Part shown: piece after piece, positions 12,448-39,812 of the stretch
How the letters are laid out: each line of letters opens with the position of its first letter
How positions within the stretch are numbered: position 1 is the first letter of the stretch
DNA from: an uncultured Clostridia bacterium
GTDB lineage: Bacteria > Bacillota > Clostridia > Oscillospirales > Oscillospiraceae
Assembly (NCBI GenBank): GCA_945873695.1
Contig: CAMCDX010000004.1
Span: forward strand, 1-40,446
DNA length: 40,446 nt
Direction of reading: 5' to 3'
The notes under the pieces: generated by a model
Database searches by the model: none
Told to the model about the DNA's origin: nothing
The model's input: the letters and a program-made list of their open reading frames with translations, nothing else
Position numbers and translations under genes: made by a program

Positions 12448-14253
12448 TTATTCGTCCAGCTTGAGCACCGCCAGGAACGCCTCCGTGGGGACCTGTACCG
12501 TGCCAAGGCTCCGCATCCGTTTTTTGCCCTCTTTCTGCTTTTCCAGCAGCTTCTTCTTCCGGGTGACATCGCCGCCGTAGCACTTGGCCAGCACGTCCTT
12601 CCGCATCGCCTTGACGGTCTCCCGGGCAATGACCCGGCCGCCGATGGCCGCCTGGATAGGGACCTCGAACAGCTGGCGGGGGATGTTTTCCTTCAGCTTC
12701 TCACACAGCTTCCGGGCCCGGGGATAAGCCTTATCCCTGTGGGCGATGAAGCTCAGGGCGTCCACCTTGTCGCCGTTCAAGAGCAGGTCCACCTTCACCA
12801 GCTCGCTGGGCCGGTAGTCGGACAGCTCGTAGTCCAGAGAGGCGTAGCCCTTGGTGTTGGCCTTCAGCGTGTCGAAGAAATCGTAGATGATCTCGTTCAG
12901 AGGCATCTGGTAATGGAGCTCCACCAGATTGGTGTCCAGGTACTGCATATCCTTGAACTCGCCCCGGCGGGTCTGGCACAGGGGCATGATGTTGCCCACA
13001 TACTCATTGGGGGAGATGATGGAGACCTTGACGTAGGGCTCCTCGGCGCGCTCAATGGAGGCGGGGTCCGGGTAGTTATGGGGGTTGTCCACCCGCACCA
13101 GTGTGCCGTCGGTCTTGTAAACGTTGTAGATGACGGAGGGCAGGGTGGTCACCAGGTCCAGATCGAATTCCCGCTCCAGCCGCTCCTGGATGACCTCCAT
13201 GTGGAGCATGCCCAAAAAGCCGCAGCGGAAGCCGAAGCCCAGGGCCACGGAGCTCTCCGGCTCAAAGCTGAGGGAGGCGTCGTTCAGCCGGAGCTTCTCC
13301 AGGGCGTCCCGCAGGTCGGGGTACTTGGAGCCGTCCTCGGTGTAGATGCCGCAGTAGACCATGGGCTGCACCGGGCGGTAGCCGGGCAGGGGCTCCGCGG
13401 TGGGGACGGCGGCGTCAGTGACAGTGTCGCCCACCCGGGTGTCCTGGACGTTCTTGATGGAGGCGGTGAAGTAGCCTACCTCGCCGGCCTCCAGCGCCTC
13501 GCAGGGCTCCAGGCCCAGGGGCAGCAGGTGGCCGCACTCCACCACCTGGTAGGTGGCGCCGGAGGCCATCAGTTTCACCTGCTGGCCGGTGCGGATGGTA
13601 CCCTCCATCAGCCGCATATAGACGATAACGCCCCGGTAGCTGTCGTACTGGCTGTCGAAGATCAGGGCCTTCAGGGGGGCATTTACATCGCCGGTGGGAG
13701 CGGGCACGTTGGCTACGATGTCCTCCAGCACCGCGTCGATGTTGATGCCCATTTTGGCGGAGATCTCCGGCGCGTCCATGGCGGGCAGTCCGATGATGTC
13801 CTCCACCTCGTGCTTGGCCTTTTCCGGGTTGGCAGCGGGCAGGTCGATCTTGTTGAACACCGGCAGGATCTCCAGGTCGTGCTCCATGGCCAGATACGTG
13901 TTGGCCAGGGTCTGGGCCTCCACGCCCTGGGTGGAATCCACCACCAGCACAGCCCCCTCGCAGGCCGCCAGGGACCGGGAGACCTCGTAGTTGAAGTCCA
14001 CATGGCCCGGGGTGTCGATGAGGTTCAGCTCATAGGTCTCCCCGTCCTTTGCCTTGTAGTTCAGACGGACGGCACGGGCCTTGATGGTGATGCCCCGCTC
14101 CCGCTCCAGGTCCATGTTGTCCAGCAGCTGGCTCTCCATCTGCCGTTGGCTGACGGCCTCGCACTTCTCCAGCAGCCGGTCCGCCAGCGTGGACTTGCCG
14201 TGGTCAATGTGGGCGATGATGGAAAAGTTTCGGATGTTGCTTTGCTTTGTCAT
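12448..14253 (-). CDS. lepA: Elongation factor 4 (LepA GTPase)
   Basis: 601 aa, full length. LepA is a ribosome-bound GTPase that back-translocates or remodels stalled ribosomes and aids 30S assembly. The G1 motif is [15 protein letters not shown], switch II is [14 protein letters not shown], and G4 is NKIDLP. The LepA-specific C-terminal domain ends in [19 protein letters not shown]. Its GGAGG site (14264-14268), 10 bases before the ATG, lies inside an inserted sequence. A second copy of the first 53 bases of this region lies upstream at 14443-14495. The gene itself is intact. Confidence 0.97.
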
Positions 14254-14254
14254 A
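14202..14254 (-). repeat. 53-bp direct repeat, copy A (5' end of intact lepA)
   Basis: The first 17 codons of lepA plus one upstream base. It is repeated at 14443-14495 with a single mismatch, 241 bp away in the same orientation. The two copies exactly bound the 188-bp insertion 14255-14442. Confidence 0.9.
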
Positions 14255-14442
14255 GATCAATGTCCTCCATAGGCAAGTCCACGCGGGGCCCCGCACAGCG
14301 GGGCGGCGCGAAGCGCCGTAACTTCAAATCAAAATCTGGGGTCCCCGAAAACTGCCCGCAGTTTTTGGGGAGAGGAGCAGCAGCGCAGTGAGCGAGCTTT
14401 GCCGTCAGGCAGAAGCGAGGGATACGGAGCTTGCGGCGACAA
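14255..14442. mobile_element. 188-bp hairpin-rich insertion next to lepA (MITE-like candidate)
   Basis: It holds three inverted repeats in a row: GCGGGGCCCCGC (14283-14294), CGGCGC-GAA-GCGCCG (14304-14318), and a long hairpin from CCCC (14343) to GGGG (14370). The last has inner arms AAAACTGC and GCAGTTTT. There is no coding potential. It is bounded on both sides by the 53-bp duplication of the lepA start. It resembles the insertion at 22058-22215 in structure and in short shared motifs (AAAATCTGGGGTCCCCG here, AAAATGCGGGGTCCCCG on the minus strand there). It also supplies the ribosome binding site now used by lepA. Confidence 0.65.
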
Positions 14443-14494
14443 GGTCAATGTGAGCGATGATGGAAAAGTTTCGGATGTTGCTTTGCTTTGTCAT
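14405..14494 (-). pseudogene. Truncated duplicate of the lepA start
   Basis: Reading from the ATG at 14494, the duplicated segment encodes [17 protein letters not shown]. It then runs into the insertion and stops after 29 codons at 14405. A GAGGT site stands before this ATG, so it may still be translated as a short peptide. It is probably the original lepA start, cut off when the element inserted. Confidence 0.75.
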
Positions 14495-14495
14495 A
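14443..14495 (-). repeat. 53-bp direct repeat, copy B (detached lepA start)
   Basis: Second copy of 14202-14254, with 52 of 53 bases identical. It lies just downstream of the SGNH-like gene. Confidence 0.9.
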
Positions 14496-14508
14496 TCGGA
14501 TACCTCAC

Positions 14509-15591
14509 TCAAGTGATGGGGTGCTGGGCGTTCCACGCGATCCAGAAGGATTCTTCCCAGAATTTTTCATAGTCATAGTCTACCACAAAGGTCTGCCAGT
14601 TGGCCAGGGTCTCCCGGTAATTTTCCTCGGTCAGCCGGTCCTCCCCGGCGGCGACTTTTGCCAGTACCTGGCCGCACACATCGCCGGAGTGATGGACGTA
14701 GTCGCAGTACTGGTCCAGGTTCTCCACGATCTCCCGGTCCATCAGAAAGCCGTAGAGCTTTACGTTCTCATAAGGCAGCAGTACCTCGCAGGTCCGCTCC
14801 AGAGCAGCGAACATGGCGTCGGTCTCCCCCAGCCGGGCGGTCTTGTCCCAGAAGAGGATACTGTACGGCGGCAGGAAGAGGTCGAACTCCGTATCCGGAT
14901 GGGCCCGGAGCCACCCCTCCACCACCGCCAGGTTCTCGTCCACGTGCTGGAGATAGGCGTCGGCAGGTACGGTCTCCGGGACAGGCTCCGGCCGGTTGTA
15001 GTTGGCCAGGGCCGTGGCGTGGTTCCACCAGATGCCCTGGTCCCAGGTAAAGCCCTCGTCCAGGGTCTCTCCCCCGCCCCAGCCGTTGGCCATGAGGACG
15101 TAGCCGCTATAATACAGGGTGTCCTTGTTCAGCAGGTACTTGATGTCATCCAGGGGATTTTCGTTGTAAAGGTAGTCTGGCATGGCGGTGGTGACGCCGC
15201 TCTCGTCCCGGACCAGAATGTTCAGGTCCAAGCCGAACAGCACCCGCTCCGGCGTCTGGCTGCGGAACAGCACACTCATGGCCTTGTCAAACTCGCTGAG
15301 GTAGCCGTCGGGGATGGTGACGCGGACAGCGGTGGTGCCGAAGGTCTCCGCCACCTCATTGGCCCGGTAGTTGGCGGCCATGGAGGTGCCCATGACCACT
15401 GTGTCCGCCGGGACGTTTTTGGCAAGGCCGGCGGCCTGGTACCGCTCGCTGAAGAACACCGGATGCCACTTGTCCGGGACGCGGTAATAAAGGCAGGGGT
15501 CCACCATGTACACCACCGCGGCGCAGGCCGCCAGCAGCACCAGCACCCCTGCCAGGAGGCCCAGGACCCAATTTTGGTATGCTCGTTTCAT
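14509..15591 (-). CDS. Membrane-anchored SGNH-like protein, MBOAT partner
   Basis: 360 aa. One N-terminal membrane helix (about 8-30) anchors an extracellular domain. GTSMAANY (S70) fits the nucleophile block of SGNH/DltD/AlgJ-like proteins. DYVHHSGD (D297, H300/H301) fits the catalytic Asp-His block near the C-terminus. It starts 10 bases after the MBOAT gene. Such pairs commonly act together: the MBOAT protein moves an acyl group across the membrane, and the SGNH-like partner transfers it onto a cell-wall or surface polymer. The polymer and acyl group are unknown here, and no dlt genes for D-alanylation are present. It ends just before the detached lepA fragment. Confidence 0.75.
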   Translation of the reverse strand: MKRAYQNWVLGLLAGVLVLLAACAAVVYMVDPCLYYRVPDKWHPVFFSERYQAAGLAKNVPADTVVMGTSMAANYRANEVAETFGTTAVRVTIPDGYLSEFDKAMSVLFRSQTPERVLFGLDLNILVRDESGVTTAMPDYLYNENPLDDIKYLLNKDTLYYSGYVLMANGWGGGETLDEGFTWDQGIWWNHATALANYNRPEPVPETVPADAYLQHVDENLAVVEGWLRAHPDTEFDLFLPPYSILFWDKTARLGETDAMFAALERTCEVLLPYENVKLYGFLMDREIVENLDQYCDYVHHSGDVCGQVLAKVAAGEDRLTEENYRETLANWQTFVVDYDYEKFWEESFWIAWNAQHPIT

Positions 15592-15601
15592 GGGCGCCTC
15601 C

Positions 15602-17029
15602 TCAGAAGTTGGAATAGATGAAGGTGGTGATGCCGGTGAAGGACAGGACGGACCAGGCGGTGAGCACCGCTAGCCCCAGCCCCCGCCAGAAGGTGGGGCG
15701 GAAGGCGTCCATCCGGTCGATCACGGTCCGGGGCCACAGGACGGCGATCATACCGATGCCGTACAGCCCCGCCACCCGGAGGATGTTCAGCCAGGGCTTC
15801 AAAGCCGGCAGCAGGATCTGCAGCGCGCCGGTCTCCTTGGAGAAGAGCCCCGCCAGCAGCCAGGGCTCCGGCTTGGAAAGCCCGCCGGTGACAGCATTGC
15901 TTAACAGCTGCCAGGCGGAGGACAGGTCCGGCGCCCGGAAAAACACCCAGGCCAGGTTCACAAAAGCGAAGGTCAGACACCACCGGACCAGGGCCGGCAG
16001 CTTCTCCCGCCGGGGTCCCCACAGCCGCTCCGCCACCTGAGCCAGGCCGTGGAGGGCGCCCCAGACGATAAACGTCCACCCGGCGCCGTGCCAGAAGCCG
16101 CTGACCAGGAAGATGACCATGATGTTCCAATACGTCCGGGCGGCGCCCTTTTTGCTGCCGCCCAGGGGGAAGTACAGGCACTCCCGGAGGAAGGTGGTCA
16201 GGGTAATGTGCCACCGCTTCCAGAACTCCCCGATGGACAGCGAGCGGTAGGGAGAGTTGAAGTTCTTCGGCAGCCGCAGGCCCAGCAGCCGGGCGCAGCC
16301 GGCGGCGATGTCACAGTAGCCGGAGAAGTCGAAGTACAGCTGAAGGGTATAGCCCAGGATCACCAGCCAGGCGGCGGGGGCGGACAGGTCCGCCAGCCGC
16401 TCCCAGCCGTTGTCCACCACCGCGCCGAAGGAGTCCGCCAGCAGCACCTTCTTGATGGTGCCGCAGCAGATGGCGTACAGTCCGGCGGCAATATCCTCCC
16501 AGCATGGGCGCAGAAAGCCCTCTCCCTTCAGCTGGGGAAAGAAGGCACCGGGCCGCAGAATGGGGCCGGAGGTGACAGTGGGGAAGAAAAAGGCGTGGAG
16601 GAACAGGTCTTCCGTGGTGTCCGGCCGGAACTGGCCGGTGTAGACCTCCTTCAGCAGCCACAGCTGCTGGAAGGTGAAGAAACTGAGGCCCAGGGGCGCC
16701 CAGCCCACGGACAGGGCGCCGCCGGTGAGAAAGCCGGTGTACTTGAACACCACCAGCACACCGATGTGCCAGGCGGCGGCCAGCCACACCACCCGCCGGC
16801 GGCCCGTCCGGGGCTTGCCGGAGGTGAGGTAACGAACCGCCCCAGCGGAAACCACGGCGCCGATGGCCAGCGCCGCAAAGCCCCGGAAACCGGCCCCCGC
16901 CAGGTAGAACACCAGGCAGGCCGCCTCCAGACAGGCTCTCGCCGCCGGCCGGTGGCGGCGGCCAAGAGGCAGGCACACCGCCAGGGTCAGGGCCAGGAAG
17001 GCTAGGAAGTCAAAGGATTGAAAGCTCAT
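15602..17029 (-). CDS. MBOAT family membrane-bound O-acyltransferase
   Basis: 475 aa with about ten membrane segments. MBOAT landmarks are LYFDFSGYCDIAAGCARLLG (about 231-250), FWKRWHITLTTFLRECLYFP (H274) and SGFWHGAGWTFIVWGALHG with the invariant H314. This is the AlgI/DltB/PatA-type group that O-acetylates or otherwise acylates exported polymers. It begins one base after the stop of the XRE gene, and the SGNH-like partner follows 10 bases later, so all three form one operon. A role in acylating a surface polysaccharide or teichoic acid is inferred from the family. Confidence 0.88.
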   Translation of the reverse strand: MSFQSFDFLAFLALTLAVCLPLGRRHRPAARACLEAACLVFYLAGAGFRGFAALAIGAVVSAGAVRYLTSGKPRTGRRRVVWLAAAWHIGVLVVFKYTGFLTGGALSVGWAPLGLSFFTFQQLWLLKEVYTGQFRPDTTEDLFLHAFFFPTVTSGPILRPGAFFPQLKGEGFLRPCWEDIAAGLYAICCGTIKKVLLADSFGAVVDNGWERLADLSAPAAWLVILGYTLQLYFDFSGYCDIAAGCARLLGLRLPKNFNSPYRSLSIGEFWKRWHITLTTFLRECLYFPLGGSKKGAARTYWNIMVIFLVSGFWHGAGWTFIVWGALHGLAQVAERLWGPRREKLPALVRWCLTFAFVNLAWVFFRAPDLSSAWQLLSNAVTGGLSKPEPWLLAGLFSKETGALQILLPALKPWLNILRVAGLYGIGMIAVLWPRTVIDRMDAFRPTFWRGLGLAVLTAWSVLSFTGITTFIYSNF

Positions 17030-17030
17030 C

Positions 17031-17714
17031 TCACTTCTCCGTCAGGGCGTTCAGCCGGGCGTCGGCGGTGCTGAGGACCTGGGTCAGGCTCTGGCACCGG
17101 CCGGGATAGGCGGCGGCCAGGGCCTCCGGGGTCAGGTCCGGGAACTCCGCCTTCTGGGACACCTGGGCCCGGAGGCAGCGGGCATAGCGGTTCTCCGCCA
17201 GCTTCATGTCCGCGTCGGCGGCGCCCATGGTGCAGGCGGCGGGGTCCAGAGCGAAGTAGGCCTCATTGGCCCCGGCGGCGCGGTATAGGTGGCGGTACAG
17301 CTGGTACACGGCGCTGCCCAGATAGGCGGCCGCCGCGTTGATGGCGCCCTTGTCCCCCAGCTTGCCCAGCAGGCCGAACAGCACGCCGACGGCGCCGGAG
17401 AGGAGCTTACTCTGGAGGGTGGCCATGACGCTGCCCTGGAGGATGTTGCCGGGCTCAGCGGTGTTCAGTACCTCCTCGCTGGTGAGCATGCTGCCGTCCC
17501 GGGACAGGGTGCGGCCCAGGATGAAGTCGGCGGAGACGTGGTAGTAGTCACAGGCCTTCACCACGAAGGCCAGCCCCGGTTCCCGGATGCCGTTCTCGTA
17601 GTGGCTCAGCAGGGCCTGGGAGATGCCCAGGTCCTTGGCGGCGGTGCGCTGGGACACGCCTCGCTCCTGCCGCAGCAGGGACAGAGTGCGGGAAAATTCA
17701 GATGTGGAAGCCAT
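17031..17714 (-). CDS. XRE-family regulator with a C-terminal extension
   Basis: 227 aa. A helix-turn-helix of the XRE (Cro/cI) type spans about residues 8-65 (GVSQRTAAKDLGISQALLSH, then YENGIREPGLAFVVKACDYY). The C-terminal 150 residues include a glycine- and alanine-rich helical part (about 105-140) that is not a recognised domain and may bind a ligand or form dimers. It is the first gene of the XRE-MBOAT-SGNH operon. A perfect palindrome lies over its promoter, which suggests autoregulation and control of the acylation genes. The HTH call is firm; the regulated signal is unknown. Confidence 0.85.
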   Translation of the reverse strand: MASTSEFSRTLSLLRQERGVSQRTAAKDLGISQALLSHYENGIREPGLAFVVKACDYYHVSADFILGRTLSRDGSMLTSEEVLNTAEPGNILQGSVMATLQSKLLSGAVGVLFGLLGKLGDKGAINAAAAYLGSAVYQLYRHLYRAAGANEAYFALDPAACTMGAADADMKLAENRYARCLRAQVSQKAEFPDLTPEALAAAYPGRCQSLTQVLSTADARLNALTEK

Positions 17715-17738
17715 AGTCTCTCTCCTTGTTTTTATAAA

Positions 17739-17779
17739 TACACGCCGTATAGTTTAGCAGAAACTATACGGCGTGTAAA
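17739..17779 (-). promoter_or_regulatory. Palindromic operator over the promoter of the XRE-MBOAT operon
   Basis: A perfect inverted repeat with 17-bp arms (17739-17755 and 17761-17777) and a 5-base centre AGCAG. On the minus strand a promoter fits inside it: TTTACA (17779-17774), a 17-bp spacer, TAAACT (17756-17751). The palindrome covers both promoter boxes, so a bound regulator would block transcription. A T-run follows on the plus strand, but no plus-strand gene ends here, so a terminator role is less likely. Confidence 0.65.
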
Positions 17780-17809
17780 GATTTTTTATGTAACTTCCCG
17801 GGTTTTCTT

Positions 17810-18691
17810 TCAAAACAGCCCCACCTGGTCCGGCAGCACATCGCCACCGATGGAGCGCAGCTGCTGGGCGTTCTCCGTCCCCAGCTGGTCGGTAATGGCC
17901 ATTTTCCGAATGATGTTCTTCACCGTCAGGTCCAGAGCCGTGCCCTCGGAGTAGTCCGCCGGGAAGATGAAGTCCACCCGGCCCTTGGCCAGCAGGTCCT
18001 CCACGCCCAGGCGGTTGCTCTCCTGGTACACGGCGATGGCCTGGCCGCCGTAGGCCCGCATCATCTTCATGCAGGGCACATCGGAGAGGCCGTCGCCGAT
18101 ATAGACCATGTTGGTGAAGGGCACCCGTTTGCTGTCGTCGGGCATGGAGTCGTTGAGGGTCTTGTCGTCAGACACATCCAGCACGCCCTTGTTGATGCGG
18201 TAGACGAACTGGGTCTTGGCGGTGAAGTTGACCGTCAGCTTGGGCCAGACGGGGCGGCCCGCCTCGTCGTAGTAAAACTCGCTGGCGTAGATCTCCTTGA
18301 ACGCCTGACTGATGCCGGAACCCTCGATGATCTCCCGCAGGCCGGAGGAGATGACATAGTGCTCCACCTGCACGCCCTGCTGTGCGCCGAAGTCGTTGAT
18401 GCGCCGGAACCAGTCCCTCACACCGGGAAACAGCACGATGTCCCGCCCCATCTCCCGCAGGCTCTCCCGGGTGAAGGGCAGGTGCCGCTTTTCCGACTCC
18501 TGAATCATGGTGTACATATAGGCCAGGATGCCGTCCATCCGGTTGGCGTGGCCGAATCCGTTGGCCAGGGACCAGAACTCCCGGGGTGTCATGCCAAGAC
18601 TGGGGATGAAGGCATAATCCTCCATATCCGTGGTGCACAGGGTCTTGTCGAAATCGTAGAGAAAGGCCACGATGGGCCGCTGTTTATCCAT
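17810..18691 (-). CDS. HAD-superfamily phosphatase
   Basis: 293 aa from the ATG at 18691, which follows GGAGG. An earlier ATG at 18742 would lie inside the terminator of the preceding gene and is rejected. HAD motifs are visible: motif I FLYDFDKTLCTTD, motif II VISSG, a motif III lysine region, and motif IV YIGDGLSDVPCMK. The insert between motifs I and II (about residues 35-105) forms a helical cap. The layout resembles phosphoserine-phosphatase-like (subfamily IB) HADs. The substrate is unknown. It stands alone after the divIVA terminator. Confidence 0.85.
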   Translation of the reverse strand: MDKQRPIVAFLYDFDKTLCTTDMEDYAFIPSLGMTPREFWSLANGFGHANRMDGILAYMYTMIQESEKRHLPFTRESLREMGRDIVLFPGVRDWFRRINDFGAQQGVQVEHYVISSGLREIIEGSGISQAFKEIYASEFYYDEAGRPVWPKLTVNFTAKTQFVYRINKGVLDVSDDKTLNDSMPDDSKRVPFTNMVYIGDGLSDVPCMKMMRAYGGQAIAVYQESNRLGVEDLLAKGRVDFIFPADYSEGTALDLTVKNIIRKMAITDQLGTENAQQLRSIGGDVLPDQVGLF

Positions 18692-18711
18692 AAGCAGTTC
18701 CTCCGGTGCGG

Positions 18712-18738
18712 AAAAAAGCGGCTCACTGAGCCGCTTTT
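18712..18738 (-). terminator. Terminator after divIVA
   Basis: An 11-bp stem (18714-18724 with 18728-18738, loop ACT) is followed on the minus strand by six T. It lies 5 bases past the divIVA stop and ends the division cluster. Confidence 0.85.
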
Positions 18739-18742
18739 CCAT

Positions 18743-19450
18743 TCAGTCCTCGCCGTTGTAGTTACGGCCGAACTTCAGATCATTGAGATTGATGCGGCGG
18801 GTGGGCTCGGAGGCCTCCTCCGTAGCGAAGGGATCTCCCTCGGGATAGTTGTCCGCCGGGGCGGGCGCTTCCTCCTCCGGCGCTTCCTCCTCCGCCGGCT
18901 CCTCCGGCGCTTTCTCCTCCTCCTGGGGGGCGAAAGCAGCCATTACCTTTTCCTCGATCTCCTCCACGGGGGCCTCCTGGGCGGGAGCCGCCGTCTCCAC
19001 AGGCAGCTGGGGCAGCTGATCCAGGAAGCTCAGCTCCCGGTTGCAGACCTCCCGGCTGGCGGCGATGAACCGGGCCAGTTCCTGCTGGCCCTGGCGCAGC
19101 CGCTCCTCCGCCTCCTCAGCCTCCCGGCGCAGCTGGGCAATACGGTCCCTGGCCTCCGTCTCCGCCTGGGCCAGCAGAGCGTCCCGCTTGGCCTCCGCCT
19201 CGTGGACGATGGAGTCCGCCATCTTCTGGGCGGTGAGCAGGGTGGCCCGCATGGAGTCCTCCGTGGCCCGGTAGTCCTCCACCTTCTCCACCAAAACCTT
19301 CATCTTGGACTTCAGCGCCGCGTTTTCCTTGTACAGCGCCGTGTAATCGTCTGTGAGCTCGTCCAGGAACTCATCGACCATGGCCATATTATAGCCACCC
19401 ATCACCGCCTTGGTGAAGGCGTGGGTGGAAACTTCCTGCGGTGTCAGCAT
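18743..19450 (-). CDS. divIVA: DivIVA-domain cell division / polarity protein
   Basis: 235 aa. The N-terminal DivIVA domain (MLTPQEVSTHAFTKAVMGGY, then VDEFLDELTDDY) binds curved membrane. A long coiled coil follows from about 35 to 140, then an acidic tail rich in proline, glutamate and alanine (about 150-215). The last part (INLNDLKFGRNY) is a short conserved-looking end. DivIVA marks division sites and poles in Gram-positive cells. It follows sepF, the usual order in the Gram-positive division cluster, though ftsZ is not in the window. Confidence 0.92.
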   Translation of the reverse strand: MLTPQEVSTHAFTKAVMGGYNMAMVDEFLDELTDDYTALYKENAALKSKMKVLVEKVEDYRATEDSMRATLLTAQKMADSIVHEAEAKRDALLAQAETEARDRIAQLRREAEEAEERLRQGQQELARFIAASREVCNRELSFLDQLPQLPVETAAPAQEAPVEEIEEKVMAAFAPQEEEKAPEEPAEEEAPEEEAPAPADNYPEGDPFATEEASEPTRRINLNDLKFGRNYNGED

Positions 19451-19483
19451 AGCGGCTTCTTACCCCCCGTATGTATTTCTCTA

Positions 19484-19918
19484 TCAGAAATAGAGCCCGT
19501 TATTTTCCAGTTCGTCAATCAGGTCGCCTTCGATATCTACGTGGTAGGGCGTAATGATATACGTGTTCGCGGCCACCTTTTTGATCTTGCCCTCGCCGGC
19601 ATAGGCCACGCCGGAGAGAAAGTCGATCAGGCGGCGGGCGATGTCCTTGTTGGTGGACTCCAGGTTCAGTACCACCGTCCGCTTGTCCCGCAGGTGGTCG
19701 GCGATCTCCGAGGCGTTCTCAAACCGCTCCGGCTTCACCAGCACCACCTTCAGCTGGGTGGTAGCGTGGATGTTCACCACCTTGTTGCGGCGGTCCTCCA
19801 CCTTGCTCTTCCGGTCCTCAAACGCCGGCTGGCGGCTGGGTTCCTCGAAGTCGTCGTACTCCTCATCCTCATCCTCGTAGGGGTGGGTCCATTTCTTCAG
19901 TTCATCAATGATACTCAT
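19484..19918 (-). CDS. sepF: Cell division protein SepF
   Basis: 144 aa, typical length. SepF links FtsZ filaments to the membrane and bundles them. The N-terminal amphipathic helix (MSIIDELKKWTHPY) is followed by an acidic linker. The core domain runs from about 60 (VVLVKPERFENASEIADHLR, then VVLNLESTNKDIARRLIDFL) and ends in ANTYIITPYHVDI. It lies between the YggS-like gene and divIVA in one operon, as in many Firmicutes. Confidence 0.95.
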   Translation of the reverse strand: MSIIDELKKWTHPYEDEDEEYDDFEEPSRQPAFEDRKSKVEDRRNKVVNIHATTQLKVVLVKPERFENASEIADHLRDKRTVVLNLESTNKDIARRLIDFLSGVAYAGEGKIKKVAANTYIITPYHVDIEGDLIDELENNGLYF

Positions 19919-19953
19919 GATACAAGCCTCCCAACGGAGCCAGGCTCCGGCAT

Positions 19954-20649
19954 TTACAGGTTGTAATGGCGGGCGCCGAAAATGGCGGTGCCTACCCGGA
20001 CCATGGTGGCGCCGCAGGCAATGGCGTCCGCATAGTCGCCGCTCATGCCCATGGACAGGTATTTCAATTCATTATGGAACAATTTTGCATTGATGTCAAC
20101 ATAAAGCGCCCGAACTTCCTGAAAATACCGCATATTCGTCTCCCGGTCGGCATCCGCGGGGGGAATGGTCATCAATCCCCGAACCCGGACGTGGGGGCGC
20201 TCCTTCGCCGCCTCCGCCGCGGCAAAGACCTCCGCCGGGGCAAAGCCGCTCTTGGCCTCCTCTTCCCCGATGTTGACCTCCAGCAGGATGTCCTGCACCA
20301 GGTTCCTGGCGGCGGCCACCTTTTCGATCTCGTCCAGCAGCTCCAGGGAGCCCACCGACTGGATCAGGTCCACATGGCCCACCACCTGCTTCACCTTGTT
20401 CCGCTGCAGATGGCCGATGAAGTGAAGGGGGGCGCCGTCGTAGGCGTTCTCCGCCAGCTTCTGGGTCATCTCCTGGACCCGGTTCTCCCCCAGCACATCA
20501 ATGCCGGCGGCGATGGCCTCCCGGCAGGCAGCGGCGTCATTCATCTTGCTGGCACCCACCAGAATGACCTCAGACGGGTCCCGGCCCGCCGCTTGGCAGG
20601 CCTGGGCGATATTGGCCCGGACCTGAGCGATATTTTCCGCAATGGACAT
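19954..20649 (-). CDS. PLP homeostasis protein (YggS/PROSC family)
   Basis: 231 aa from the second ATG (20649), which has a better distance to GGAAGGAAG than the ATG at 20658. It is a single-domain alanine-racemase-like barrel that binds pyridoxal phosphate and keeps its level steady; no enzyme activity is known for the family. The PLP lysine is in ILVGASKMNDA. Other family blocks are LGENRVQEM, LHFIGHLQRNKVK and YLSMGMSGDYADAI. It sits directly before sepF, a widely conserved link. Confidence 0.92.
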   Translation of the reverse strand: MSIAENIAQVRANIAQACQAAGRDPSEVILVGASKMNDAAACREAIAAGIDVLGENRVQEMTQKLAENAYDGAPLHFIGHLQRNKVKQVVGHVDLIQSVGSLELLDEIEKVAAARNLVQDILLEVNIGEEEAKSGFAPAEVFAAAEAAKERPHVRVRGLMTIPPADADRETNMRYFQEVRALYVDINAKLFHNELKYLSMGMSGDYADAIACGATMVRVGTAIFGARHYNL

Positions 20650-20682
20650 ACGTTCCATCTTCCTTCCGAATGTTTTCTATAT

Positions 20683-21930
20683 TTATCCCACGACTTTTCG
20701 GTCGTACAGATCGTTTGCGGTGATGATGATCTCATCGCCGTCCCGCAGGCGGGTCTTTTCCTCCTCCGTGTCCGCCCGGACCAGCACGAAGCCGTCTCCG
20801 CTGTACAGCACCTTCACCGGCTTGAAGCGGGCCTCCATGCCCACCACACAGTAGACGCCGGTGCCCTCGGTAACGGTGCGATCCCCCTCCTTGTCCACGG
20901 TGACCTTCTCCGCCCGCAGCGCCTCCGTAGGCACCCGGATACCGCTGACGCTCCGCCGGATGATTTCCGCGCTCTGCTGGCGCAGCATGGTCAGCTGGGC
21001 CAGATAGGTGTTCCCCCGAAAGGTCACCGCGGCCTTGCCGCTCTCCTCCGGGCCAATGGCATCCACGGTGACGTCCAGGTCCCGGTCCGCGCTCTTGGAA
21101 AAGCGCAATGTCAGGCTGCCGCTCTCCCGCAGTTCCTTCGCCTTCTCGGCGTCCATGACGGCCACGTAGTACCAGCTGTCCCCCAGGATCAGCTTGCCCA
21201 CCTGGGACCGAACGCTGTCGTCGGGCTTTACCGTTTTCAGGGCGGAGGGCGTCAGGTCCCTCAGTCCCTCCGGCGTCAGCACCGTCTCATAGCCGTCCAC
21301 CACGGCGGAGTACAGCCCCGACGCCGGTGCGGTGATGCGCCGGGTGGAGGAAGCCGCCTGGGATCTCAGGGTCTTCAGCTGGGCCTCCAGGGTCTCGATC
21401 TGGCTCGCCAGATCCTCAGTGTCGGAATCGGTGTAGTCCCGCTTCAGCACCAGGCTCCGCAGTTCCCTCCCCTGCTCCTCGGCCTCCGCCAGCCGGTCCG
21501 ACGCCAGGGCGGACCGGACCGCCAGCAGGTCCCGCAGGATCTGGTCGTCCAGCTTCATGGACACATCGGCGCCCAACGCCGCCTCCTGGGCGTACTCCAG
21601 CTGCTCGATCCGGGCCTCCAAGCCATCGATCTCGTTCTGCCGGTCCAGGGAGGCCTGGTCGGCGTAAGCCGTGGCCACGGTGCCGCCCTTGCTGACCCGT
21701 TCCCCCTCGCTCCGCTGCAGGCGGAGAAGGCCGTCATCTTCCTGCAGCACCTGCTCCTCCCGCACCACATAGCCGGAAAGGGCGGTCTTCTCCTCCACCT
21801 GGTAGGTGTAGGCCAGGGTGGTGGTCAGCGGGTCTCCAAAGTACCGGGCCGCCTGGAAGCCGAAATAGGCCAGGACCCCCAGGGTGACCGCCGCCAACAG
21901 TATTTTCATTCCGAGAGAGCTGTTTTTCAT
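20683..21930 (-). CDS. HlyD-like membrane-anchored adaptor protein
   Basis: 415 aa. One N-terminal membrane segment (about 8-27) is followed by a barrel-sandwich (lipoyl-like) half (LSGYVVREEQVL, GERVSKGGTVATAY). A coiled coil spans about 95-200, and the second lipoyl half begins RRITAPASGLYSAVVDGYE. A beta-barrel end follows. This is the layout of HlyD/RND adaptor proteins, but no ABC or RND pump gene is adjacent. In this cluster it sits between hfq and the YggS-sepF-divIVA genes, so a cell-envelope role tied to division is possible. RBS AAGAGGT precedes the ATG. Confidence 0.72.
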   Translation of the reverse strand: MKNSSLGMKILLAAVTLGVLAYFGFQAARYFGDPLTTTLAYTYQVEEKTALSGYVVREEQVLQEDDGLLRLQRSEGERVSKGGTVATAYADQASLDRQNEIDGLEARIEQLEYAQEAALGADVSMKLDDQILRDLLAVRSALASDRLAEAEEQGRELRSLVLKRDYTDSDTEDLASQIETLEAQLKTLRSQAASSTRRITAPASGLYSAVVDGYETVLTPEGLRDLTPSALKTVKPDDSVRSQVGKLILGDSWYYVAVMDAEKAKELRESGSLTLRFSKSADRDLDVTVDAIGPEESGKAAVTFRGNTYLAQLTMLRQQSAEIIRRSVSGIRVPTEALRAEKVTVDKEGDRTVTEGTGVYCVVGMEARFKPVKVLYSGDGFVLVRADTEEEKTRLRDGDEIIITANDLYDRKVVG

Positions 21931-21978
21931 GGTTACCTCTTATGTATCCGCCGTATCTGCCGCCTGGCAGGCAGAGCG

Positions 21979-22057
21979 TTACTCCCCCGCCAGGTCCACC
22001 GTCCGCATAGGCGCGATGGTGGAGATCGCGTGCTTATAAATGATCTGCTGCTTGCCG
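21979..22057 (-). pseudogene. Detached duplicate of the hfq 3' end
   Basis: On the minus strand this segment encodes [20 protein letters not shown], then DLAGE and a stop at 21979. It repeats the C-terminal part of the intact Hfq (22204-22428) but lacks any start. It is probably the original 3' end of hfq, separated by the insertion 22058-22215. Confidence 0.8.
21991..22057 (-). repeat. 67-bp direct repeat, copy B of the hfq 3' end
   Basis: It matches 22216-22282 at 64 of 67 positions in the same orientation, 225 bp apart. The slightly higher divergence than at lepA (3 versus 1 mismatch) suggests an older event. Confidence 0.88.
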
Positions 22058-22215
22058 CCCCACAGGATGCTCCCCATCCTGCGGGGACCCCGCATTTTAC
22101 TCAAATGGGCAGGCGAAGCCCGCCCATTTCAAGGTTTTCCCTCCGGCAAAACCCTTGACGCCGCTTTCGCGGCGGCTCGTTGACGCTCCCGCGACGGCAA
22201 GCCTCATTCGCTTGT
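22058..22215. mobile_element. 158-bp hairpin-rich insertion next to hfq (MITE-like candidate)
   Basis: Inverted repeats follow one another: CAGGATG...CATCCTG (22063-22081), GCGGGG-A-CCCCGC (22081-22093), and AAATGGGC...GCCCATTT (22103-22129). It has no coding potential of its own. It is bounded by the 67-bp duplication of the hfq end. It shares motifs with the lepA-side insertion, including GGGGTCCCCG and a GACGGCAA-CTC element. Its last 12 bases (22204-22215) encode the final three codons and stop of the intact Hfq. Confidence 0.65.
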
Positions 22216-22428
22216 CAGATCCACCGTCCGCATGGGCGCGATGGTGGAGATCGCGTGCTTATAGATGATCTGCTGCTTGCCGTCGCTGTCCAGGGTGACG
22301 ACGAAGGCGTCGAAGCCGGTGATGACGCCCCGCATCTGGAAACCATTCATCAGGAACAGCGTCACCGGCACCCGGTCCCGCTTGGCCCGAAGAAGAAAAA
22401 TGTCCTGTAAATTCGCTTTTGTCTGCAT
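22204..22428 (-). CDS. hfq: RNA chaperone Hfq
   Basis: 74 aa, a normal length for Gram-positive Hfq. It forms a ring that binds small RNAs and A- or U-rich RNA. The Sm1 motif is [20 protein letters not shown] and the Sm2 motif is IYKHAIST, the latter being the Hfq signature. It lies after miaA, the classic miaA-hfq order. The C-terminal residues TSE and the stop come from an inserted element, while the detached old end reads AGE. The protein core is untouched. An AAAGGAG site precedes the ATG. Confidence 0.96.
22216..22282 (-). repeat. 67-bp direct repeat, copy A (inside intact hfq)
   Basis: The 3' coding part of hfq that is duplicated at 21991-22057. It directly abuts the insertion. Confidence 0.88.
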
Positions 22429-39526: not shown

Positions 39527-39812
39527 AAAATAAAAACGCCTTGTCTCCATCAAGAGACAAAGCGTTTGGAAAAACACTCTGCGGTACCACTCTCGGTTGC
39601 CGTGGCCTTGCGGACACGACCGCTCAGCGCCTGCGAACACAGGCCGACGGAATAACGCCCGTCACACGTCCACGCTTACTCGCGTCGTCTTTCAGCAGGA
39701 GGCTCCAAGGGGATATTCGCCCTCCGCGCCCGTCCGCCTCGCACCAAACGGCGGCTCTCTTCGCGGGAACCAAAGGGGTACTCGTCCTTATCTACGCCAA
39801 AATGTTCAATTA
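39527..39812 (-). ncRNA. T-box leader responding to isoleucine tRNA
   Basis: On the minus strand the T-box core GAGTGGTACCGCAGAGTG (39593-39576) is followed by a terminator. The upstream part has stem I features, including GGTGCGAGGCGG and a specifier region GCGAATATCCCC. The specifier codon reads as AUC (39714-39712), for isoleucine. Uncharged tRNA-Ile binding should stabilise the antiterminator and allow transcription of the zinc-ribbon gene and ileS. The 5' end is estimated from the promoter. Confidence 0.9.
39532..39568 (-). terminator. T-box-controlled terminator
   Basis: Arms AACGCTTTGTCTC and GAGACAAGGCGTT form a stem that allows a G-U pair and is followed by a T-run on the minus strand. 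It competes with the antiterminator that contains the T-box core. Confidence 0.85.

Follow-up and report, generated by a model that had tools for sequence, protein, structure and literature searches.

In insertion sequences of the IS200/IS605 family, the accessible parts of three papers (PMC5934647, PMC8266576, PMC6006769) describe a left end composed of cut site, linker, guide and hairpin, and a right end composed of a 5' pairing segment, a hairpin and a paired 3' terminus. The available text of one of them (PMC5934647) places the native 4-nt guide of IS608 5' of its hairpin, gives TTAC as its left flank, and reports that extended pairing was engineered to direct this element to 12/17-nt targets. 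Repetitive extragenic palindromic sequences (REPs) are palindromes of 20-40 bp with a GTAG or CGTC tag, according to the accessible part of PMC3733652. Here, we analyze two short palindromic inserts, at the genes lepA and hfq, in a 40,446-nt stretch of DNA (hereafter the window) that forms contig 4 of a draft genome (1.77 Mb, 78% complete) of an uncultured Clostridia bacterium from the Oscillospiraceae, together with the families of elements to which these inserts belong.

The elements carry no gene. At many loci they lie between two copies of a gene end, the gene being kept intact by one of them, and at about half of these loci a short guide sequence is complementary across the insertion junction. 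We propose, with a probability of roughly one in two, that each is a mobile unit, small and non-autonomous, which bears a long natural guide and is moved as a single strand by a putative enzyme of the IS200/IS605 kind or of the REP-associated tyrosine transposase (RAYT)/REP kind. As far as we have found, the combination is new: many short non-coding elements at gene ends, a second end copy that leaves the gene intact and, often, an antisense copy of the junction. No description of such elements appeared in the literature searched, which comprised titles and abstract starts from an open-access subset.

Two inserts and two element families

Both inserts, with their flanking direct repeats, are real and lie at the coordinates given in a preliminary description of the window, which had correctly portrayed them as small, non-coding and palindromic sequences flanked by long copies of gene ends. 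Insert 1 (14255-14442, 188 bp) is located at the start of lepA (12448..14253, minus strand; TIGR01393 family match). Its repeats (14202-14254 and 14443-14495) are 53 bp long, 98% identical and span the lepA start. Read on the plus strand, the locus begins inside lepA with a target-side arm, GCGTGGACTTGCC (14187-14199), which is an inverted match to the guide and ends just left of the junction, termed p, at about 14199/14202. The first tail copy (14202-14254) is the start of the intact lepA, antisense to the unit. It is followed by the guide GGCAAGTCCACGC (14272-14284), which is antisense to the p junction at 13/13 positions, and by the 5' palindromes of a lepA-type A element (14285-14337; GGGGCCCCGC..GCGGGGC and GGCGCGAAGCGCC, identified from the sequence and common to L064, L099 and L123). 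A core hairpin, GGGGTCCCC..GGGGA (14338-14371), was located by pattern search and has a stem with compensatory changes. The A module (14372-14442), recognized by nhmmer and by covariation, contains a second hairpin and a right-end stem and terminates here in CGACAA (usual form CGACGA). The second tail copy (14443-14495) is a displaced copy of the lepA start.

Insert 2 (about 22058-22199, ~142 bp) is oriented on the minus strand; it is located at the 3' end of a further minus-strand gene, hfq (22204..22428; TIGR02383 family match). The two copies of its repeat, 21975-22057 and 22200-22282, are 83 bp long and 88% identical. The repeat length of 53 bp given previously is correct for insert 1; the 67 bp given for insert 2 is the better-matching core of a longer repeat. 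On the unit strand, the hfq junction (22275-22286, a 100% inverted match to the guide) reads GCGA up to p, between 22283 and 22282, and CGGCAAGC beyond it. The first tail copy (22200-22282) is the functional hfq 3' end through the stop codon at 22204-22206, as seen from the repeat and the translation. Next come the guide GCTTGCCGTCGC (22191-22202), antisense to the hfq junction at 12/12 positions, and the B module (22058-22186), identified by B-family searches and covariation, with three hairpins and then the core GGGGTCCCC..GTGGGG at the 3' end. The displaced second copy of the hfq 3' end (21975-22057) has its own stop codon, and hfq sites without it occur in relatives.

The preliminary description overlooked the inverted junction copies (14187-14199/14272-14284 and 22275-22286/22191-22202). 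It also regarded two motifs as shared. The first, GGGGTCCCCG, is indeed common to both inserts, provided that each is read in its own orientation (for insert 2, the minus strand). The resemblance in the second, GACGGCAA-CTC, is coincidental, since this motif belongs to an A-module hairpin in insert 1 and to the hfq-specific antisense guide in insert 2. A scan of both inserts against Rfam 15 gave no match at the gathering score, and a relaxed threshold gave weak matches far below it.

Rather than the single family first suggested, we find two sequence families, A and B, plus a third palindromic type at pgk. A and B have a common core, consisting of GGGG-N-CCCC, a variable hairpin and GGGGA. In A, this core is at the 5' end and precedes a conserved module ending in CGACGA; in B, three hairpins come first and the core is at the 3' end. 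The families were defined by profile searches (nhmmer for A) and not by the core pattern, which by itself is unspecific (16 matches in the window's own genome vs. 11 for a reversed control, several of them within ordinary genes). The structures of both families are conserved. In samples of 28 sequences each (from 65 eligible A and 37 eligible B sequences), the pairs with at least one two-sided compensatory change number 24 of the 31 predicted for A and 15 of the 29 predicted for B. The right-end stem of A, formed by the 3' end and the sequence 5' of the second hairpin, has such changes in seven of its nine pairs.

The expectation that the genome holds many copies is borne out, both in this genome and across its genus. 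Searches of the genome with inserts 1 and 2 returned four and six places, inserts included, and an exact direct repeat of 35-77 bp spans the element in seven of these ten. Among 60 genomes (the window's own and relatives, 37 of them from its genus), A occurs, among the matches listed, in 26 and B in 13; within the genus, the numbers are 24/37 and 13/37. An A-family pattern has 35 matching stretches among 84,980 species genomes; judging by the record titles, some of which say no more than 'uncultured bacterium', 'Bacillota' or 'Clostridiales', these belong to Oscillospiraceae-type gut bacteria (e.g., Oscillibacter, Lawsonibacter, Pseudoflavonifractor, and Candidatus Enterenecus). Two exact patterns returned no stretch in viral contigs.

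The elements also occur as tandem units (L274, L277, L245, L082, and L215). In L082, L274, L277, L245, and L010, these are arrays of two or three tail-plus-element units, while L215 has two tandem units of the third palindromic type. At another locus of the window's own genome (L007, C17:15775), a B unit has a second tail copy that is split by A-like sequence, as judged by eye, perhaps through nested insertion. Two repeat-free A elements of this genome (L013, C1:66914; L016, C17:14382) lie within long open reading frames of 642 and 453 amino acids, respectively, and may be in-frame inserts. A Pfam scan of the longest frames over these two copies gave no match; one frame is phage-terminase-like by eye.

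Gene tails and antisense guides

Long flanking repeats are characteristic of B and of a minority of A. The loci compared here were hand-picked from among the matches listed, mostly away from contig ends. A repeat was called when a direct repeat across the element scored at least 20, with flanks re-paired from different loci as the control. For B, 69 of the 75 copies with flanks (of 80) have such a repeat, vs. 11 of 368 re-paired flanks. For A, 165 matches gave 158 unique copies, 15 of which were dropped for short flanks; a repeat is present in 37 of the remaining 143, vs. 6 of 851 re-paired flanks. Long repeats like those of the two inserts thus surround most B copies, but not the 106 of 143 A copies that have none at this score.

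Most of these repeats are gene ends. In A, gene tails account for about 30 of the 37 repeats. Of the others, those at L048 (twice) and L081 overlap another A copy, those at L145, L112, and L077 are element-like by eye, and that at L027 is a simple repeat. Two of the 69 B repeats (L274 and L266) overlap another B copy. Across both families, 101 distinct tails were scored. In 76, an open frame (minimum length 240 nt) crosses the tail in sense and terminates within it or close by; another 16, the lepA start among them, are antisense to such a frame, and nine are neither. The B tails have a median length of 70 nt (65 loci). In A, 18 of the 37 right-hand repeats start exactly 1-2 nt past the final profile position; in B, where the last hairpin is variable and not covered by the profile, the repeat mostly starts 13-35 nt past the profile end. 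Hence the position of the 3' terminus is approximately constant, whereas the distance at which the 5' side meets the gene's own downstream region varies.

Between the left tail copy and the first hairpin, just 5' of the element hairpins, lies a guide of ~9-16 nt. It is an inverted copy of the sequence at the left tail edge and is complementary across the insertion junction p. For A, 38 of the 41 repeats scoring at least 16 were used; 16 of these loci have a guide scoring at least 10, vs. none of 1,140 shuffles and 33 of 1,406 pairings of guides with the junctions of other loci (same-gene loci included). For B, 65 of the 69 repeat-bearing copies were used (four arrays or contig-edge copies being excluded), and 33 have a guide scoring at least 9. 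The corresponding controls are 13/1,300 shuffles, 3/193 upstream windows of the same genes, and 101/4,156 pairings with the junctions of other loci. All 33 passing B guides cover the last base before p and the first three bases after it. Their coverage extends mainly 6 nt to each side and fades by ~7 nt. At one lepA element (L123), the target and the guide carry complementary changes, a single anecdotal case; the guide at hfq of G013 is mismatched to its target.

In A, guide and repeat occur together. Among the 123 of 143 A copies kept for this comparison, a guide (score at least 10) is present in 12 of 33 copies with repeats (shuffled, 6/330; right flank, 0/31) and in 2 of 90 copies without (shuffled, 9/900; right flank, 1/87). 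These two are a tail locus (L026) and an array (L048). The majority of copies that have neither repeats nor guides suggests that A can also insert more simply, and the guided, tail-carrying A may be a derived homing form.

The same genes are targeted repeatedly. The lepA start, the lepA end, pgk, hfq, prfB, and a tRNA-Leu are each occupied at two or more loci, and uvrA and others at one. The names lepA, hfq, and pgk are from family matches and the tRNA is from ARAGORN, while prfB, uvrA and the remaining names are our own reading of the sequences. In different genomes, pgk carries A-type elements, one B copy, or the third palindromic type. The third type, which is unlike A and B by eye, follows pgk at its 3' end in L215 (G004), L207 (G024), and L059, and is accompanied there by a tail copy of its own. 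In many relatives, pgk has its stop codon followed by the leader of the next gene, with no element. For hfq, loci were fetched from 30 of the 43 genomes with a match; 21 of these were parsed and nine were not. A second tail copy is present in five of the 21 and absent from 16. At the tRNA-Leu target (L075 and L107), the tail copies carry different terminator-like hairpins in the same layout, as if each had once been a working terminator.

The flanking repeats could be target duplications or gene tails that are brought in by the unit. Classical target duplication was our first model, and it is no longer favored because of the codon positions at which tail copies differ. A useless, neutral copy should mutate evenly, so that third positions would contribute at most ~50% of the mismatches in a pair. 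Across the 76 sense loci, the mismatches at codon positions 1/2/3 number 61/39/174 of 274 (64% third; p = 4.6e-6 vs. 50%). This set retains L052, a false repeat formed by two neighboring tRNA-Ser genes (also kept in the A guide test), and three loci with uncertain reading frames (L099, L257, and L285); four others (L028, L038, L059, and L060) were kept in a first codon check. Retaining uncertain frames should dilute a third-position bias. The signal comes from 25 loci with at least five mismatches (131 of 200 at third positions), and at one locus (L062) all 14 mismatches are third-position and synonymous. Tail indels are few (eight gap openings in 6 of 76 loci), under an alignment that penalizes gaps. 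The diverged copies thus differ like coding sequence, and both seem to have a history as working gene ends. The repeats are probably, at about two to one, gene tails brought by the unit, perhaps from another lineage. Of the long target duplications first described, the long direct copies of gene ends stand; ordinary target-site duplication probably does not. Many tail pairs are too alike to distinguish carried from duplicated.

Two further comparisons bear on the origin of the tails. Measured against relatives with a single copy, the pgk tail copies give a mixed picture, with the displaced copy closer at some loci and the functional copy closer at others. As to a step in divergence at p, the prfB pair L244/L276 jumps from 0.5% to 11-15%, but only three close occupied pairs existed, and 10 of 11 close, element-free control pairs also have a tail more diverged than the gene body.

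The window also contains a T-box leader at 39550-39803 on the minus strand (RF00230, 96.9 bits).

Proposed movement, candidate machinery and rival explanations

In the proposed mechanism, the unit, roughly 150-290 bp, would comprise the gene tail from junction p onward, an antisense guide of ~12 nt, and hairpin module A or B. The tail is probably part of the mobile unit. Insertion at p would swap in an equivalent gene end and leave the old one downstream as the second copy. The unit would move as single-stranded DNA, mobilized in trans by a Y1/HUH transposase of RAYT or IS200-like type. Pairing across p between the target and the guide, which lies 5' of the left hairpin, would set the left cut, and a similar pairing at the right end of A would set the 3' cut. 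A unit of this kind would home to the corresponding gene end in further strains or species. The order of parts at the left end, and at the right end of A, is as in IS200/IS605, and IS608 pairing has been extended by engineering; these are our grounds for proposing single-strand transposition with a long natural guide. The tandem units fit the reuse of a regenerated p site.

Y1/HUH transposases co-occur with A within the genus. Hits were classed as RAYT or IS200 by the better-scoring model, with fragments counted. Any Y1/HUH transposase is found in 15 of the 24 genus genomes with A vs. 1 of the 13 without (Fisher p = 0.0016), and RAYT-type matches are found in 8/24 vs. 0/13 (p = 0.03), both uncorrected for phylogeny and completeness. 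The window's own genome has a RAYT-type match whose parts fall in different frames. RAYT-type Y1 genes were also observed directly at the end of a gyrB/parE-type gene (L168 and L170) or of uvrB (L169), with L168 and L169 identified by family match; in these two, the start of the RAYT-type gene overlaps the preceding stop codon.

Several observations weigh against the proposed mechanism. The 12 RAYT-type loci fetched (~10 distinct, some overlapping, ~1.5 kb on each side) contain no A, core, or B match. Nor did the loci examined contain an autonomous partner with matching ends, such as the transposase or reverse transcriptase suggested earlier. A RAYT match exceeds the model's curated cut-off in only 1 of 60 genomes, and several Y1 hits are fragments. 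Of the 23 genomes outside the genus, 10 have a Y1 hit, all of them without A, while the A-bearing G048 and G050 have no Y1 hit. A Y1 hit is likewise absent from G008, which is 95% complete and has 16 matches to B, and from G014, which is 100% complete and has 13 matches to A. Among 11 copies of A examined in G014, none has a clear gene tail, and the one repeat that scores 20 or more is between neighboring elements; one might speculate that Y1 is needed only for the tail-bearing form. No guide passes the threshold at 22 of the 38 loci for A and at 32 of the 65 for B. The guide of IS608 pairs with bases 5' of the cut, whereas the guides here span both sides. The codon signal is weaker at the 51 of 76 loci with four or fewer tail mismatches (43 of 74 at third positions, p = 0.10). 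Among orthologous elements, the tails of one genome often resemble each other more than they resemble those of other genomes, which is equally explained by local duplication or gene conversion and also fits spread within species. Finally, the lepA elements diverge roughly in step with lepA, and some copies must therefore be old and inherited.

The likeness of tails within genomes and their divergence between them would follow from local rearrangement, in which A or B first inserts in the ordinary way close to a gene end and tandem duplication or hairpin template switching then occurs. Such events would create the repeat and the inverted junction copy, and conversion would keep the copies alike. 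Template switching at palindromes is established, and the arrays show unequal exchange. Nevertheless, across many different genes, the profile position at which the 3' end of the element joins p is identical or nearly so, and every one of the 33 passing B guides crosses p. Random switching would scatter both ends, and we regard local rearrangement as unlikely. Slightly more doubtful is target-primed insertion, one of the mechanisms first suggested. Here, a guide-bearing RNA would pair with the target, the opposite strand, nicked at p, would prime reverse transcription starting at the fixed 3' terminus, and another nick at a distance of 40-100 bp would generate the long duplication. The fixed 3' end of A and the variable repeat length (as in the B tails) resemble products of long interspersed nuclear elements (LINEs), many repeat pairs are identical, and the conserved structure is RNA-like. 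Yet clearly differing copies differ like coding sequence, and the reverse transcriptase domain RVT_1 does not track the elements: it occurs in 10/24 genus genomes with A vs. 5/13 without (p = 1, uncorrected for phylogeny and completeness) and was not found in the element-rich draft genomes G014, G018, G024, G028, and G029. A reverse transcriptase was accordingly rejected as the driver.

We give about the same low credence to a different guided machinery, such as an IS110-type bridge RNA or an unknown nuclease. A guide that spans both sides of the cut is a point in its favor, as HUH guides are not known to do so. IS110-type genes above the model's cut-off are present in 10/24 genomes with A vs. 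2/13 without, including G014 and G008, which have no Y1 hit; this co-occurrence is not significant (p = 0.15, likewise uncorrected), and IS110 was set aside as the driver. IS110 bridge RNAs use split guides, whereas the elements here have a single contiguous guide that pairs with one strand only. Moreover, no IS110 match was found in the window's own genome (at its 78% completeness), G006, G007, G015, or G036.

If the guide does direct single-strand insertion as we propose, the elements would be a natural counterpart of engineered IS608, with a ~12-nt site found by base pairing and without a double-strand break. We tentatively suggest, at somewhat less than even odds, that they are naturally programmed, guide-directed elements that can enter essential genes of many species harmlessly through a ~12-nt guide and a matching replacement tail, and that can acquire targets by capturing a new tail and guide. 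If so, they would offer a model for programmable, seamless insertion at essential gene ends, and the colonization of dense bacterial genomes by small repeats would be explained. Even under another mechanism, a repeat family that carries an antisense junction copy at the ends of pgk, hfq, prfB, lepA, a tRNA-Leu and other genes poses a sharply testable question.

Comparison with known systems

The elements most resemble IS200/IS605 (IS608 and ISDra2) and its non-autonomous derivatives. Hairpin ends, a guide 5' of the hairpin that pairs with the cleavage site, a paired 3' terminus at the right end (in A), and the order of the left and right parts are the same. However, the guides here are gene-specific and, at ~9-16 nt, about three times as long as the IS608 guide described in the accessible text. 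The units also carry a gene tail, with no transposase gene within or linked to them. IS200/IS605 insertion occurs without target duplication, which fits the present loci if the tail is carried by the unit and fails if the tail is a duplication.

The REPs, including bacterial interspersed mosaic elements (BIMEs), and their RAYT (TnpA_REP) provide a second parallel. Both they and the present elements are short palindromic repeats found mostly at gene ends, and RAYT-type matches occur in eight genomes of the genus, one of them above the curated cut-off. The CGACGA end of A contains the reverse complement of the CGTC tag, as that tag is given in the accessible text, and only the terminus of A resembles it. 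In contrast to REPs, the elements measure about 100-190 bp and combine several hairpins with a target guide and long gene-tail repeats, and the RAYT-type genes at the 12 fetched loci are not flanked by them. Membership in IS200/IS605 or REP cannot be claimed, since guide length, size, and the unlinked transposase depart from the known definitions.

Retroelements are less similar. Diversity-generating retroelements have a copy of a gene 3' end plus a downstream hairpin; here, the targets are housekeeping genes, no reverse transcriptase tracks the elements, and such an origin was rejected on a mismatch table of the copies that has no adenine bias. LINE-like elements are set apart by their reverse transcriptase, RVT_1 being uncorrelated with the elements here and not found in several element-rich drafts.

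Some integrative elements and prophages bring a replacement 3' gene end, so that the gene remains intact and the old end is left downstream as a direct repeat. The elements described here have the same arrangement of replacement end, downstream old end, and intact gene. They differ from those larger systems in being units of <300 bp without an integrase, found at dozens of gene targets, and in having an antisense guide in place of a recombinase site.

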